NCBI RefSeq assembly: GCF_028769735.1
Contig: NC_088171.1
Location: 91,124,912 to 91,188,911, forward strand
Direction: 5' to 3'
Length of the DNA: 64,000 bases
From: Zonotrichia leucophrys gambelii
Taxonomy: Eukaryota > Chordata > Aves > Passeriformes > Passerellidae
Shown here: positions 12,148 through 64,000 of the stretch, one piece after another
Layout of the letters: each line of letters starts with the position of its first letter
How positions within the stretch are numbered: the stretch's first letter is position 1
Notes under the pieces: model-generated
Told to the model about the DNA's origin: nothing
What the model saw: the letters and a program-made list of their open reading frames with translations, nothing else
The model's database searches: none
Position numbers and translations under genes: made by a program

Positions 12148-13299
12148 AAGAAAAAAACCCCCAGAATTAAAAAACCCGAAACCCCACGACTTGAGCTGTA
12201 GGAGAGGCGCCGCTGCTGCTGCGTGCCGCAGAGCTGCCGTGGCCCGGACTGGCTGCGCGTGTGCGTGTGCGGGGCGCCGAGCCCGAGTGGGAGCGTGTCT
12301 GCGTGCCGCGTGTGAGGGCGGGAGCGTGCGCGGAGCCCGCCCGCGCCGGGCAGCGCTGCCGCGGGCGCCGCGCGTGTGCCAGCGGGTCGCGCGTGGGCAC
12401 AGCCCGCGGGCCGCGGCTGCCGCCGGCCTCCCCTGCCCGCCCATGGGCAGCGGCCGCCGCTCGCACCTCCCCGCGCCCGCCCTGGCAGCTCCACCTGGAG
12501 AAGGTGCCCGACCCGCCGGCAGCCAGCGCTGATGCCGTGAAGAGGGAGCTCGGTCCGGCCCCCGCCGCCGCGGCACACTTTGCTGTGCCCCCGGCCGCGC
12601 ATCCCGCCCGGCGGCGCTGCCCGAGCCGGAGGAAGGGCGCAGGCGGCACTCCGCGCCCGCGGCGGGGGCTGCCCCGGCTCCCGCGGAATGCGGCACTAGC
12701 ACCCCCGCCCCGGCTCCGCTCCGCTCCCCTCCTCCGCCTCCCCGGCTCCAGGGGGGGGCTTTTTCCTCATCGGCGTTTTCTGCCGGAGCATCCCTTTTTT
12801 TTTCCCCTTTTCACCCTTTTGGAGGAGGAGGAGGGGGAAGGAAGGAAGTGTTCAATGAGGGCTGCTCGGCTCCCCCCCCCGCGCCTGAGAGGTGCTGTCC
12901 CTCCCTGAGCGGAGAGGGGGGAGAGCTGCCGGGGAGGCAGAGGCAGGTCCCGCTCCCTTGCTGTGCCGCGGGGAGAGCGGAGGAGGGTGGTGGGGAGAGT
13001 GTCTGTGTGTGCGTGGTGGTGGTGGTTATTTATTTATTTATTGCTCCTGGTGGTTGCAGCTGGCAGACCTGGGAAGGAGTAGGCGCCATTGCCAGAAGGA
13101 TTATTGCCAGGGGAGGGGAGGGGGGGGAAGAGAGAGGAGACCCCGAGGCTCCCGAGGAAGCGGAGAGAGGCAGATCTTTCCCTCCCGCCTTGGCTTCTGC
13201 CGCCGGGGGATGCGCCCAGACTGAGAGGGGCTCGGCTCTCTTCCGCCGCTCAGCCCGTTCCTCCACCCTCAGTCCTCCTCCTCCTCCCCATCCAGCAGC

Positions 13300-13608
13300 A
13301 TGCATCCCTCTTCGCGGAGACCGGCCGCTGCCACCTCCAGCCCTGCCATGCTTCTGCTGCTCCTGTGCCTGGGCTGGGCGCCGCCGGGCTGGGGCTGGTC
13401 TCGGGGCAGCTCCCGGGGGGCGGCCGGGCTGCGCCCCAACGCCACCACGCCGATCTCCATCATGGGCTTGATGCCGGTCAACCAGTCCGAGGAGGAGAGC
13501 AGGATCACCCAGGGAGTGCTACCCGCCGTGTATCTGGCCATGGATCAGATCCGCAACGAGTCCCTGCTCAGCCCCTATTACCTGGACCTGCTGGTCTACG
13601 ACACGGAG
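13300..13608 (+). CDS. GABBR2: GABBR2 exon 1 (GABA-B receptor subunit 2, N-terminus)
   Basis: 103 codons from ATG to a phase-0 donor (gtaggg at 13609). GABA-B receptor subunit 2 is a class C GPCR that pairs with GABBR1. It carries the first to surface, couples to Gi/o and does not itself bind GABA. Residues 1-16 are Ser/Pro/Ala-rich; residues 17-33 are the hydrophobic signal-peptide core; the mature protein probably starts near residues 32-40. The Venus-flytrap domain begins at residue 52 (ISIMGLMP), followed by VLPAV (73-77), QIRNESLL (83-90) and the exon-ending YDTE. These segments match the known family start, and the exon break after DTE agrees with the mammalian gene as I recall it. N-glycosylation motifs are at 47, 61 and 86. 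A second in-frame ATG (codon 17, 13348) also has a purine at -3 and could be used. No exon 2 was found in the window. Confidence 0.93.
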
Positions 13609-14214
13609 GTAGGGACAGCCGAGGGCCCCAGCCCCGGGCGCAGGGGGAGGCGCCGCCGCCCAGTCCCGGGGCGCTGCGGGTGCAGGGGCGCAAGGGCAGC
13701 GCGGACGCCCGGGCCGGGCTGCGGCTGTCGGCGGGGCCGTGCGCGCCGCCTCCGAGCCGCCTTGCCCGCCCGGCCCCGCAGGCTGCCGGCAGATGTGCGG
13801 GCACCGGCGGCGGACGGGGGGGGACGCGGGGCCGGCGGGCCGTATCCTGCCCGCCCGGTGTTACCAGCAGCGGCTGCCCCGGCAGCTGGGGCTCGCCCCG
13901 CCGCGCCAGGAGCGCCCCTGTCCGGGAGCCGCCTGCAGCGCGGGGGTGGGCCCGGACGGTGCCCGGGTGATGGGGGGTTCTGGTGGCTGTGGCCGGGATC
14001 CGCTGCCCTTGGCACGCACGTACACCGGTGGGAGGAAAGCTGCCTCGCCCAGCGGAGCCGCGGCCGCATCCCGGTGCCAGCCGCCACCCGCTCAGCAACA
14101 GATGCACTCCGGGCGCTCCGCTCCCCCGCGCCGCCAACGGGCTCACGCTGCCAGCCCGGCTTATCCCATGCGGCGGCGGGACGCGAAGGGCAGCGATCGC
14201 AGCCGTAGCTTGAG

Positions 14215-26693: not shown

Positions 26694-27752
26694 GTAGATT
26701 TGGGGGCTTCCTGTGGATGGGGAGAGCTGACTGCTGGAATGGAGGAGAAGGATCAGCCATGGCAGGTGGCTGCTTCCATGAGAACAGCAGCATTCCTGTG
26801 CCAAAGGGGCAGGGAGGATGCTGCTTGTCTGAGGGGTGAGGTGGGCTGCAAGTCCTGGGGAGCAGAGGTGCAGGTTCTCCTCTGGTGTGGTGATCCTGTG
26901 TATAATCCCTTCTCACCCTGGCGGGTTTTGATTAGCAGCAGGGAAGATTTTCTCCACGTTACTATTTCCTCTGCATTTCTGCGTGTACGGCATCCGTTCC
27001 ATTTCATGCCCTGGCATATTACTTGGGAAACTGCAAATAGTGTGCTGAAATTACTTAGCTAGCTACAACAATATGTGAAATGCCTGTCAAATGCTGTGTG
27101 CCTGTAGATGGGAGGAGCAGGCCTGCATGCTGAATTTTCTCACAACTACCACTGATTTTAAGGAAAGCATGGGGTTTCTGACAAAAAGCAGAATCAGGAA
27201 AAGGATGTACAGCTTTGAGCTGCTGCAGCTTTTGCACTAGAAGTATATAAAATATTATGGATATGCAAGACTTCATATTCTCTGTTTGACATGTATGAAA
27301 CCAACAGAAAATGTGTTTGTGCAAGATAAAACAAACTGAAGCAATCTTCTAACCCAATGGCATACAGGTTGCTGTATGCAACTCAAATATTACTTCAGTG
27401 TACAACCACTTTGATCAACCCCTAGAATATCTATTTTCAAAGGAATCATATGAGTTCTTGTATTGATTTGTCACCTATGGTTGAATATTTCTCCTACAGA
27501 ATGTTTAAAATGACACATGTTTAAAATTAGACTTGGCAGAGTAATTTGCCTAGAGATTATTCTTGTGAAGTATTGATTCACAGCACTGCTGTGAGCTGGA
27601 TTACTGTCCAAATTGGAAAAGCCAGTCGTAGAGAGGTCTTTATCCTTTAATAACAATTAGCTGCTTTCTTAGAGGGACACAGCAGACTGAAGCAAAGGAA
27701 AGCTGTAAAATGTCAGGCAGCCAGGACATCTAAGGCCTGGTTCTCTTCAGGG

Positions 27753-27845
27753 ATGAGAAAGAAAAAGAAGAAAACCCCCAAAAAAGATGGTTTTCTGGAG
27801 CTGGAAACTAGACACTCTGATGCTGTTTGTGTTACTAATAATTAG
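27753..27845 (+). promoter_or_regulatory. upstream open frame overlapping the second GABBR-like start
   Basis: An ATG at 27753, in a different frame from the ATG at 27787, opens a 30-codon Lys-rich frame that ends at TAG 27843-27845, inside the downstream coding sequence. Both ATGs have a purine at -3 (G for the upstream one, A for the downstream one) and the downstream ATG also has G at +4. An acceptor-like ttctcttcag ends at 27750. If the transcript includes this ATG, it could restrain translation of the main frame. Function is inferred only. Confidence 0.4.
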
Positions 27846-28032
27846 GTGCTCTGAGGAGCTGAATCGGACTCGCCTCTCTCTTCTTGGGCTTTTACCCAGC
27901 AGCTGCCTGATTGACCAGAAAAACCTAACAGCAGATGTGCTGCCCGCGGTCCATTTAGCCTTGAAACATTTATACAAGCATAGATGGATGCTGAAGAACT
28001 ATGAGCTGCAGGTATCATTCCATGACACACAG
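27787..28032 (+). CDS. second GABA-B-receptor-like first coding exon (alternative GABBR2 exon 1 or diverged paralogue)
   Basis: 82 codons from ATG (aaaaagATGG, good Kozak context) to a donor gtaaat at 28033, phase 0. An in-frame TGA at 27754 supports this ATG as the start. Residues 8-19 are a hydrophobic core (LDTLMLFVLLII), giving a signal peptide with likely cleavage near residues 20-24. From residue 30, LSLLGLLP aligns with ISIMGLMP of GABBR2 exon 1. Then come exactly 13 residues in both, VLPAV in both, and a tail with YEL and HDTQ where GABBR2 has YDTE. About 17 of 53 aligned residues are identical, with a single one-residue gap. The YEL-HD tail also recalls the equivalent GABBR1 segment. 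N-glycosylation motifs are at 26 and 46; Cys40 has no partner in GABBR2 exon 1. It lies 14.2 kb downstream of GABBR2 exon 1 on the same strand, with no CpG island. It has no stop or frameshift despite the divergence. Whether it splices to GABBR2 exon 2 or to its own exons cannot be seen here. Confidence 0.8.
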
Positions 28033-28397
28033 GTAAATGGATGTAGGTGTAGAGTTGTGCAGTGCTTGAGCCTCCTCTGTGAGCACACTTCAGGATGCTT
28101 GTGACTGGAAAATCCTGGAAAATCCTGCTGAAATGGAGCAAATGTGGCTGCCCAGCAATGTTGGGGCTCTTGGGTGGATGCCTGACTGTGATGTGGATCT
28201 TGTAGCACAATCGTGTCCTGGTGGTGCTAGGAGCAGGAATAAAGAGTGTGTGAATTAGGGGGGTTGGTGAACACCGACAGCTCTTGAGGAGTGTTTGTAG
28301 CACCCAGGAAGTGATTCCCAAATCCATGGTTTGCCGAGTCACTCTACTCTTCTGCACTGTCCTTGCTCTTCCAGCTTTCCACGGTGACAGCTTTATC

Positions 28398-59625: not shown

Positions 59626-61390
59626 ACCTGGCAAATGGACTCTTGCTGGAGAGTCAGAGCTAGATGGAGTATGCTAGATATAGTGGCAAAAAGGATTGAA
59701 TATCTTCCCTCTTACTCTCTAATCACATCTGCTTATATTACAGGCTAATTGCATAGTGTTTGAGAAATGTTTGAGAAATATGGTAAGATAATTTTTCCAA
59801 AATAACGCTGTTCTTACAAGTTCTACAAAAAATAGGGTATGCTTCCAAGATGTCTTGCCAGCATAAACAGTACTACATGTATCTGAGAAATCAATGCATG
59901 AGTCTCCTTTATCCAAATCATAAGAATTGACTTTAAGATGTAAGGCCAGTTTTTCTCAAATTTAAGATGAAGTTCACTCTTGTTTAAGCTGGAGAAGCAA
60001 AGCAACATGGTAAATGACTCTGGGCTAGTTTCATCTTTGCTTTCTGGCAGAAAGACAAATATACACATCCTTTGCATTGCTTTTTGAAGGGAAAACAGCA
60101 CAGGGGAGATATGTGAGGGTGGAATGCCTCCCATGTCTCACAAAAAAATACTTGTTGGTAGTCTTCACAAAGATATTGAAGATGATATGAGGGACTTGCT
60201 TCACTTCTACTTTGGACATCCATTTTTAGTTCTCTAATTAAATTGGACTACTATTAAAAAATGTGTTTTTTATTACTCAAAATTACACAAAGAAATGGCA
60301 AATTAAGCTCACCTTCATTCCATACAGTTCATGTTATAATTTTTAAGAATATTAAGAAAACAGGTGCACCCAATTCCGAACTGTGTAAGTCATTTGCAAG
60401 CTTCTGTATATCATTTGTTTTGAAGCATAATCTCTTCTATAACTGCTTTTACCCTCTTATTTTCTTTGTAGTTCTTTGTCTAGTTTGACATTTGCAACAG
60501 CTCACATTTTAATAAAAATAAAATAAAAATAAAAATATGGAAATATATTTTCTGCTTTGATTGTCTTTTTCTTTCAATGCAAAGGATATTGGTTTCCTTT
60601 AGAAATGTATCTGTTGTGCACAGCCATATCAGAATTGGAGCTTGATGAAACACAGCTTGACATAAAGAGGCAGGCTCAAATATGCTTGTAATTAGAACAC
60701 AGTTTGGAATTTGCTGTCCAAAATGCTTTTTTGTTGTTTGTTTTTTTGCTGTTTTTTTCTCTTTTTTTTTTTTTTGTTCTTTGTTTTTGTTGGCCACACC
60801 AAGAGGCCTCCTGAAAAAAGTACCTTTTCATGTGATGTACCTTCAGTAACCAAAGAAATTCCATAAATCCTGTTCTCTTGGTACAAGATGTATGATAGCA
60901 GTGGCAGGCAGCCAATCTGGAAGAAAAGCACAAGCAATTAGCGTAAGGAAACAAGCTAAACAGATTGACAGGTGCATAAGGATTTGTAAGTGTCCTGTTG
61001 GGATGGATTCAAAGGATGTGCTTGAAAGAGGTATTTTTGTGCATAGATTTTTTTTGGGTAACATAATGTGTGGACATACAAGGAGTTTAGTAGGGAAAAT
61101 GACAACTGGGGATAAAAAAGCCTCTGTTGCTGACAGGGGGAACACAAGACTTGATGCATTAACTGTGTATTGAATTATTTAGGGAGTGATAAACAGGAGC
61201 TAGACATAATAGTCTAAAATATAATAACATACTTGATGAGAGGAGGGTGGAGGCAAAAACTCTACCTTACTCTTTTTTACTCTTCTGGATTTGAAGCAAA
61301 AAATGGAAAAAATTCCAGTTTTACGTGGGAAAAATTGCCCCCCATACTCATAAATCCCATAATTTTCTGCAAGGTTTGGAGGTTTTTCTG

Positions 61391-61515
61391 GGGTTTTTTT
61401 GTTTGTTTGTTTGTTTTTTGTTTTGTTTTTTGTTGGTTTTTTGGTTGGTTGGTTGGTTGGTTTTGGATTTTGGTTTTTTGTGGATTTGTTTTTGTTTGTT
61501 TGTTTGGGTTTTTTT
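61391..61515. repeat. T/G-rich low-complexity tract (TTTG)n, (TTGG)n
   Basis: Mixed GTTT, GTTTT and GGTT units. All three + frames are open here and give Phe/Val/Leu-rich translations that mimic membrane proteins; these are artefacts of the repeat. Confidence 0.9.
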
Positions 61516-62741
61516 ACATTACTGAATTTTTATTGTTTATTTGTCAGTCTCAATTCCTGCAAGAATTGTGACCAAAAAACCTTACATACAGAAAGAAATA
61601 TCTGAATTGGCAAGTATGATCAAGAGTTTGTTTAAAAAGAAGACTGAATTTAGAGTAATTCTGTGTAGAACAAACTGCAGGGCAAGGAAGCACCACAAAA
61701 GGAAAGAGTTGGGGGTTTAAGAGGTTTAAGAGGTTCTTCTCTAATTTAGGAGTTGGAGAAGAAGAGGTGAAGGGGTAAATTAAGATTGAATTTCTGGGTT
61801 GGGTGGATGAGGTGGAAGGTTCAGTAAAGAAAAATAACTGTCTCATTTGCATGGACAGACTAAAAAGTAGTTTGCAAGTCAGGGATGGGATAAATTGATT
61901 GAGAGGTATGGTTGATGGCATCGTTTGTTTGGAGTGATGTGAGGGTTATTTTAGGGGTTTTTGTTTATTTTTTTATATCCTTTAATTAGAAGGACTTGTT
62001 TGGGTGGGAGCTAGGAGGCAGTGGGAGGCTGCTCCTGCTGGGGAGGTGGGCAGAGATCTGCCCAGAGGGAAGGTGGCAGCAGGAGGCAGGGATCCCGTGG
62101 AACACCAGCATCATTGGGGAGGCAGTGGGAAAGAGCAGGGACCAATCTGCTAGTGACACAAATGACAGAAAAAATCCCCTACAGGCAGAGGAGGCTGGGC
62201 ACTGTTTGCTGCAACTCAGAAAGCCACTCAGTTGGCCAAAACTGGGCTGTGCAGCAAGGATCAGCCTACGTTTGTTGCTGTGAGAATGATAAATTTGAAG
62301 CAGACTCAGAAGTTGTCTCTCTCAATTATCTTGATGATTTCCAATGATTGAGGGCATCGGTGTCAAGCTGTTATTTCTTTCGAGAATGTAGCTCTAAAAT
62401 CAATATGTTGTACTAACACTTCCAACGCCAGTTGTGAAAATAAAATAATTTAAATATGCAGTCAGAAAATTGCATCCATCATCGCTTTGTCTGCCATATA
62501 AAATTACTCAAATTTTGAATGCTTGATATAGATTATACCTGAGATGTAGCACTCCCCGTAGCTTTCAGGCTTATCTTCCCCTTCTCCTGCCCAGGAGACA
62601 GACAATGCAGCTCAGCTGGATGAATTTGAATATATCAGCCAAAAAATTAATATTGGAAGAATATCTTCACTTTCAAACTTTGCATGCTTGCAATTCAATA
62701 CCACCTACTGATATTTAAAAACATTTTATTTTTGTGTTTTA

Positions 62742-62766: not shown

Positions 62767-64000
62767 AAGGGGGAATATTGCTTTTTCAATTTATTCCATG
62801 AATTCTCCATTCAAGCCTTCTGTTTTTTGATTGACTGTTTTTAGAGGCCATGAAAAGTGCTGAAAAGTGCAGTTAACTCTAGATGCTGGAGAAAAACAAG
62901 TGACAGAGTAGCACAGCTTTTCTTTTAAGAAGCAGCTCACCCCTCTTGGAAAGGACCCACATGACAGTAACGTGCTCCAGGCTGTGTGCTGGCCAGGGAG
63001 GGTGTTTGCCTTGGGCTCAAGCACTGGCACTGCACTTGCACAGATGGGATGGCCTGGTAAAGCACACAGAGCCATTTGCCCAGCTCTCCTCCCACCAGAA
63101 CCCACAGCACATGAGGATTGAGGAGTTAATGCACCCTGAGCCCCACCCCACCTTAAAATGACATGGTTTCAGTGCTTCTTCATGTGCAGAAATATGTTTT
63201 ACTACACAGATTCAGCCAACCTAACTTTGGCCTTCTAAAATTTTTCTGCTGACGAGATTGAAAGCTCAGTAAGATCTTGCTTGGTTTTGAAACTCATGGA
63301 AAATTGTCACCTTCCAGCTGGAAATGAGCCAAAGGCAAGCTGCCTTTGTCATGCTAAGTTGTCATGGCCAGTGCCTAATAAAGGTTATAGACCTGAGCAG
63401 GATGGCTCTGTTCTTAGCAAGCTGCTGGTGGGAGGGACAGATAAACCAAGTTTACCAAGGCAGGCGTGGGAGTTTTTATGTTGTGATTTTGGTCTGAGAT
63501 TTTTTTGTTGATTTTTTCTTTTTCCCCAAAGGAAAGCAAGGGTTTATTTGTAAATGTTTATCGTCTAGGATAATGTGATGTTTACATTCTTGGAATGCAA
63601 AACAGTGCTATGCTGCCTGTTGTTTGCCTCCTTATCATTTCAGCATCTTTTGGAAAATATATGAATATACATGCCATGCAAATGAGGGTTTATAAGTCAA
63701 TAAATAATTGTGTTTGCATTAGTGTGGATGCAAATTTTGAGGTCAAGTTACAGTCATTAAAATAGTTTTATAAGCATTTCTTTTTACCTTGACAAAAATA
63801 ACTCATCTTTGAAGCAATTAACTGTCATGCAAGCCACTCAACTATTTTGGACAACTTGTTTTTGCTTTGCCATGCTATTTGCTCTATCCAACATGGCTAA
63901 TCTGTTCAAATGCAATAGGAAAACAATTTGCTTGCTGGTAATCCTATTGTTCAGCAGGCCAGACTTTGCATGACATCTCTGTAACTCTGCTTGTGCAGGG

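Follow-up and report, generated by a model that had tools for sequence, protein, structure and literature searches.

A candidate alternative first coding exon within GABBR2 intron 1, conserved in birds and anoles

A 64,000-nucleotide stretch of Zonotrichia leucophrys gambelii DNA (here called the window) contains the canonical first exon of GABBR2 and, 14 kb downstream of it, a second open frame at positions 27787 to 28032 that is homologous to that exon and conserved in both birds and anoles. In database proteins, its peptide runs in frame into GABBR2 exon 2. We consider it probable (roughly 0.83) that this segment serves GABBR2 as a functional alternative first exon, which would be transcribed from intron 1 and spliced to the common exon 2. 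All coordinates refer to the forward strand of the window.

Position, structure, and homology of the proposed alternative exon

The canonical exon 1 was placed by sequence comparison at 13300 to 13608, where 103 codons end in phase 0 at a GAG/GTAGGG donor. The alternative exon (27787 to 28032), assigned from its open reading frame (ORF), homology, and conservation, begins with an ATG at 27787 in a good context (AAG-ATG-G), and its 82 codons are free of stops up to a CAG/GTAAAT donor (GTAAAT at 28033 to 28038) whose phase 0 matches that of exon 1 and whose position is where exon 2 is joined on in four protein records. An in-frame TGA lies upstream of the ATG at 27754 to 27756. An acceptor-like site ends at 27750; canonical exon 1 spliced there would read GGA-TGA, an immediate stop, so the alternative exon would work where a transcript begins but hardly between two other exons. 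About 22 residues at the N-terminus (residues 1 to 22; 27787 to 27852) form a putative signal peptide on the basis of hydropathy, with a hydrophobic run, TLMLFVLLII, at residues 10 to 19 and with the cleavage site placed tentatively. Residues 29 to 82 (27871 to 28032) align with the start of the Venus-flytrap lobe in GABBR2 chains of solved structures, and an N-L-T glycosylation sequon at N46 (codons at 27922 to 27930) precedes the first helix in all eight distinct alternative-exon peptides. The alternative exon also has a sequon at N26; those of the canonical exon are N47, N61, and N86, and the last of these, an NES sequon, has no counterpart in the alternative exon.

The canonical start lies in a CpG-rich region recognized by its base composition (12200 to 13600; GC content, 0.71). 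The CpG observed/expected ratio was 0.75 at this start versus 0.17 at the alternative exon, where no CpG island was found by this measure. The alternative exon should start from an intronic promoter of its own, for which a TATA-like string, TATATAAAATA, at 27244 to 27254 and ~540 bases upstream of the alternative ATG is a candidate that may also be a chance occurrence in AT-rich DNA. A short upstream reading frame of 30 codons (27753 to 27845), defined by an upstream ATG, overlaps the alternative start codon in another frame. Its effect on translation is hypothetical, and it would suit a mainly regulatory role for a transcribed alternative first exon, in which transcripts are of low level, the upstream frame limits their translation, and no distinct subunit is made. 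We regard such a role as improbable, as the amino acids of the flytrap core are conserved and the NLT sequon is present in 8/8 peptides, which argues that the protein itself matters. Elsewhere in the window, a sharp skew of G over C (0.447) was seen at 61001 to 62000, together with an imperfect GTTT array at 61393 to 61506. An Rfam search returned no match.

Using BLASTP, the alternative and canonical peptides were found to be identical at 18 of 55 positions (33%) and positive at 35 of 55 (E = 6e-9), with both donors at the same alignment column, after ...HDTQ in the alternative peptide and ...YDTE in the canonical one. The initial annotation had described a second intact GABA-B-type first exon in GABBR2 intron 1, sharing the design of exon 1, a phase-0 donor at the same column, and about 32% of aligned residues; the ORF, start, and donor are confirmed here, and the BLASTP alignment agrees with the rest. 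When the canonical core was compared with positions 13701 to 64000 using tblastn, the alternative exon scored 36.2 bits; with this exon masked, the best score was 18.5 bits, and none of 60 first-order Markov resamples reached 36.2 bits (maximum, 23.1 bits). The homology to GABA-B receptor exon 1 is beyond chance.

A tblastn search of the window with a human GABBR2 sequence identified the canonical exon 1 (E = 5e-24) and the alternative exon (E = 7e-4); the match ranked after these (E = 0.008) is in simple sequence and contains a stop. This search found neither exon 2 nor any later exon of GABBR2 in the window, so that the splice partner of the alternative exon would lie outside it. Among sequences of solved structures, the eight best matches of the alternative exon were all GABA-B subunit 2 chains, although weak (E = 0.049 to 0.25) and with an unrelated kinase close behind (E = 0.31); the exon alone gave a sub-threshold Pfam match to ANF_receptor (E = 0.096). 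Four alternative-exon peptides searched against the window (tblastn) revealed the two known exons and no further exon 1 copies, all other matches having E values of at least 0.16. In Pfam searches of ten other ORFs, none exceeded the cut-off. The one sub-threshold match (E = 0.012) was on an ORF antisense to the alternative exon.

Junction with GABBR2 exon 2 in database proteins

The 82-residue peptide was used as a query against 5.8 billion proteins, at sizes of about 45 to 143 amino acids, and all four candidates returned were matches. These ORFs (P0003, 96%; P0004, 87%; P0005, 85%; and P0006, 76%; E = 6e-46 to 2e-34) each span the whole exon without an indel or stop and then continue with VNG or VKG, a read-through that fits a GTNAA donor. 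As they run on into the intron, they have the look of ORFs called from genomic DNA, unlike the products of splicing; among proteins of this size, read-through ORFs were the only matches and no spliced fragment was found. In the most distant of them, P0006, 62 of 82 exon residues were identical, compared with 4 of 31 in the intron read-through.

A full-length query in which GABBR2 sequence was appended to the exon, scored on residues 1 to 82, gave two matches among 22 candidates: the GABBR2 proteins of Zonotrichia albicollis (100%) and an owl, Otus sunia (89%), both of 872 amino acids. The owl protein was used as the query for a third search, scored on residues 1 to 112, in which 44 of 185 candidates were listed; these are representatives of 90% clusters of predicted proteins, and the representative sequences alone were compared. 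The alternative exon was present in four of the 44 listed proteins: both bird proteins and the isoform X2 models from Anolis carolinensis and Anolis sagrei ordinatus. Another 36 had a canonical-type exon 1, complete or partial, while three (P0047, P0048, and P0050) had starts resembling neither exon 1, and in one (P0049) exon 2 was preceded by a single residue. The alternative exon was missing from every mammal, turtle, and amphibian protein listed, and crocodiles and bony fish were absent from the list; as the entries are predicted proteins, each representing a cluster, this pattern is weak evidence against the exon. Within this set, birds and anoles were the only groups with the alternative exon.

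In all four GABBR2 gene models the alternative peptide is joined in frame to the start of exon 2, with the C of CDNAKGL as the next residue, which is the same handover point as that of the canonical exon 1. Of the later residues in the A. sagrei ordinatus alternative-exon record, 833 of 834 are common to the canonical-exon A. sagrei record. The only domains that Pfam recognized in the two joined bird proteins (P0007 and P0008) were ANF_receptor, 7tm_3, and GBR2_CC, the coiled coil of GABBR2; sushi domains, whose gain or loss would mark a GABBR1-type a/b switch, were found in neither.

The initial annotation had also raised a third GABA-B-like receptor. The deep divergence from canonical exon 1 (18/55 identical) would be expected of a separate gene nested in GABBR2, and its own later exons could lie further downstream, as the window ends at 64000 and intron 1 extends beyond it. 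We nevertheless consider a nested gene very unlikely, and a third receptor disfavored, because the search with human GABBR2 found nothing more of a receptor over the following 36 kb and the remainder of all four alternative-exon records is GABBR2.

Against the reading of the segment as a GABBR2 first exon stands the fact that the supporting records are gene models, which can carry spurious starts. Both alternative-exon bird models lack a transmembrane segment that is present in the anole models, and thus the models are not clean. This segment, which starts IIKDQKL, is present in 38 of the 44 listed proteins and missing from six GABBR2 records (P0007, P0008, P0011, P0013, P0014, and P0019) from five birds and one tegu lizard, in which KMKKK is joined directly to PDPAG. 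Its absence points either to an exon that is often skipped or to an artifact common to these models.

Constraint and age of the proposed alternative exon

Comparison of the alternative exon in the window with that of A. sagrei ordinatus revealed identity at 39 of 55 positions (71%) in the flytrap core, 10 of 27 in the signal/linker region, and 50 of 82 overall. The canonical core compared with that of A. sagrei was identical at 34 of 52 positions in cowbird, a songbird, and at 40 of 50 in parrot. These bird-lizard core identities are comparable, so that within the receptor lobe the alternative exon evolves at about the same slow pace as its canonical counterpart; its signal/linker region changes faster, as expected for a signal peptide. 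The alternative exon is conserved at the protein level across distant species. The common ancestor of birds and lizards lived roughly 280 million years ago, a time far past the survival of a neutral exon. The earlier argument for long selection over a recent dead copy is upheld by the core identity with the anole and by the in-frame join in two birds and two anoles. That the segment is a relic, an old duplicated exon that is unused and open by chance and whose receptor-like start was taken up by the models, is hardly credible: the lack of a CpG island and the odd starts of some gene models would fit, but from anoles to songbirds the frame has stayed open and both the exon end and the flytrap core are kept, the intron flank is already lost at a much smaller distance (4/31), and an unused exon should lose alignability over such time. 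Most likely, the alternative exon has been kept since the bird-lizard ancestor.

The songbird canonical exon 1 core (13435 to 13608) has itself changed fast, being identical to that of parrot at 39 of 50 positions, with parrot and anole identical at 40 of 50. Most of the songbird changes in canonical exon 1 are common to the zebra finch, cowbird, and wagtail records, and the last 58 residues of cowbird canonical exon 1 are identical to those in the window.

A tree was built from 53 columns and 25 rows, comprising 23 of 50 proteins and two outgroup segments. The alternative exons formed one clade (92/90), and the canonical exons, including those of mammals, amphibians, and hagfish, formed a second (70/88), with the bootstrap unsettled for both and two rows on long branches. 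An origin within sauropsids, amniotes, or tetrapods was not rejected by AU tests (P = 0.45, 0.37, and 0.45, respectively); as these tests reject no later origin, the tree gives no dating past the bird-lizard ancestor. After the first helix, the alternative exon has an extra residue that is missing from the 13 tetrapod canonical rows but occurs in hagfish, in the GB2 chain of PDB 9jqx, which we take to be that of an insect, and in a GABBR1 segment. This residue hints at an origin before tetrapods, on a short segment with an unsettled bootstrap and AU tests that reject no later origin.

Predicted product and relation to known GABA-B receptor isoforms

In the mechanism that we propose, transcription would begin within intron 1 at a promoter that is no CpG island, translation would start at the ATG of the alternative exon, and position 28032 would be spliced to the shared exon 2. 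The product would be a GB2 subunit in which the signal peptide, the mature N-terminus, and the first two strands of lobe 1 with the helix between them are exchanged, an N-glycan site is moved, and all else in the receptor is unchanged. It should keep its pairing with GB1, as shared exons encode the lobe-1 helix that bears the interface tyrosine, the seven-transmembrane domain, and the coiled coil. The GB2 interface tyrosine, which we take to be human Tyr118, is within CDNAKGLKAFY, a shared exon 2 sequence that does not vary among the 22 proteins, out of the 44 listed, that were aligned. The GB1 and GB2 flytraps are described as pairing via lobe 1 through three stacked tyrosines (PMC7411975, excerpt). 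The alternative GB2 would differ in the site and time of its production and in the glycosylation and recognition of lobe 1. An AlphaFold model of P0007 based on 22 sequences had a mean pLDDT of 35, too poor for use.

According to excerpts of two papers, GABBR1a and GABBR1b (GB1a and GB1b) derive from one gene with two starts, giving two N-termini on the same receptor body (PMC12314290, PMC13242166); by the former, two sushi domains are gained or lost and the binding site is unaltered. In the excerpts of PMC12314290, PMC13242166, and PMC7411975, N-terminal isoforms are named for the GABBR1 subunit alone. The GABBR2 arrangement is similar in that two N-termini are joined to one receptor body in a GABA-B subunit gene, but the exchange would affect, in place of sushi domains, the signal peptide and the opening strand, helix, and strand of the flytrap lobe itself. 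The alternative exon shares the design, exon end, phase, and downstream protein of the canonical GABBR2 exon 1 and differs from it in sequence (33% identity), in its extra residue after the first helix, in its sequons, and in having no CpG island.

The isoform X2 models of A. carolinensis and A. sagrei ordinatus have the same exon joined to exon 2; the anole exon is two residues longer before the core and is without the N26 sequon. The alternative exon is therefore already in gene models, uncommented. No mention of a second GABBR2 first exon was found in the titles and abstract openings searched, nor in the excerpts of GABBR2 papers PMC3228559, PMC8700296, PMC10454129, and PMC9495000, of which the last two report, in those excerpts, gene-level GABBR2 expression changes in bird and turtle. 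What would be new is a GABBR1-like first-exon switch in the other subunit, one that replaces part of the flytrap lobe itself.

A broader scenario, which we offer tentatively and hold to be rather unlikely, is that the two first exons predate tetrapods, that birds and lizards keep a GB2a/GB2b switch with cell-type-specific promoters, and that mammals lost GB2b. GB2b resembles the GB2 chain of PDB 9jqx in the residue after the first helix and in the NY-x-L...DTQ ending. If the scenario is true, a GB2b receptor with an older-looking lobe-1 edge and a moved glycan would imply other extracellular partners, surface delivery, or activation. Within the GABA-B receptor, GB2 is the half that signals. 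A second, conserved front end for this subunit in birds and lizards would double the possible extracellular make-up on the GB2 side and would affect the interpretation of GABA-B data from songbird and reptile brains, and the alternative exon would provide a natural test of the role of the first segment of the GB2 lobe.
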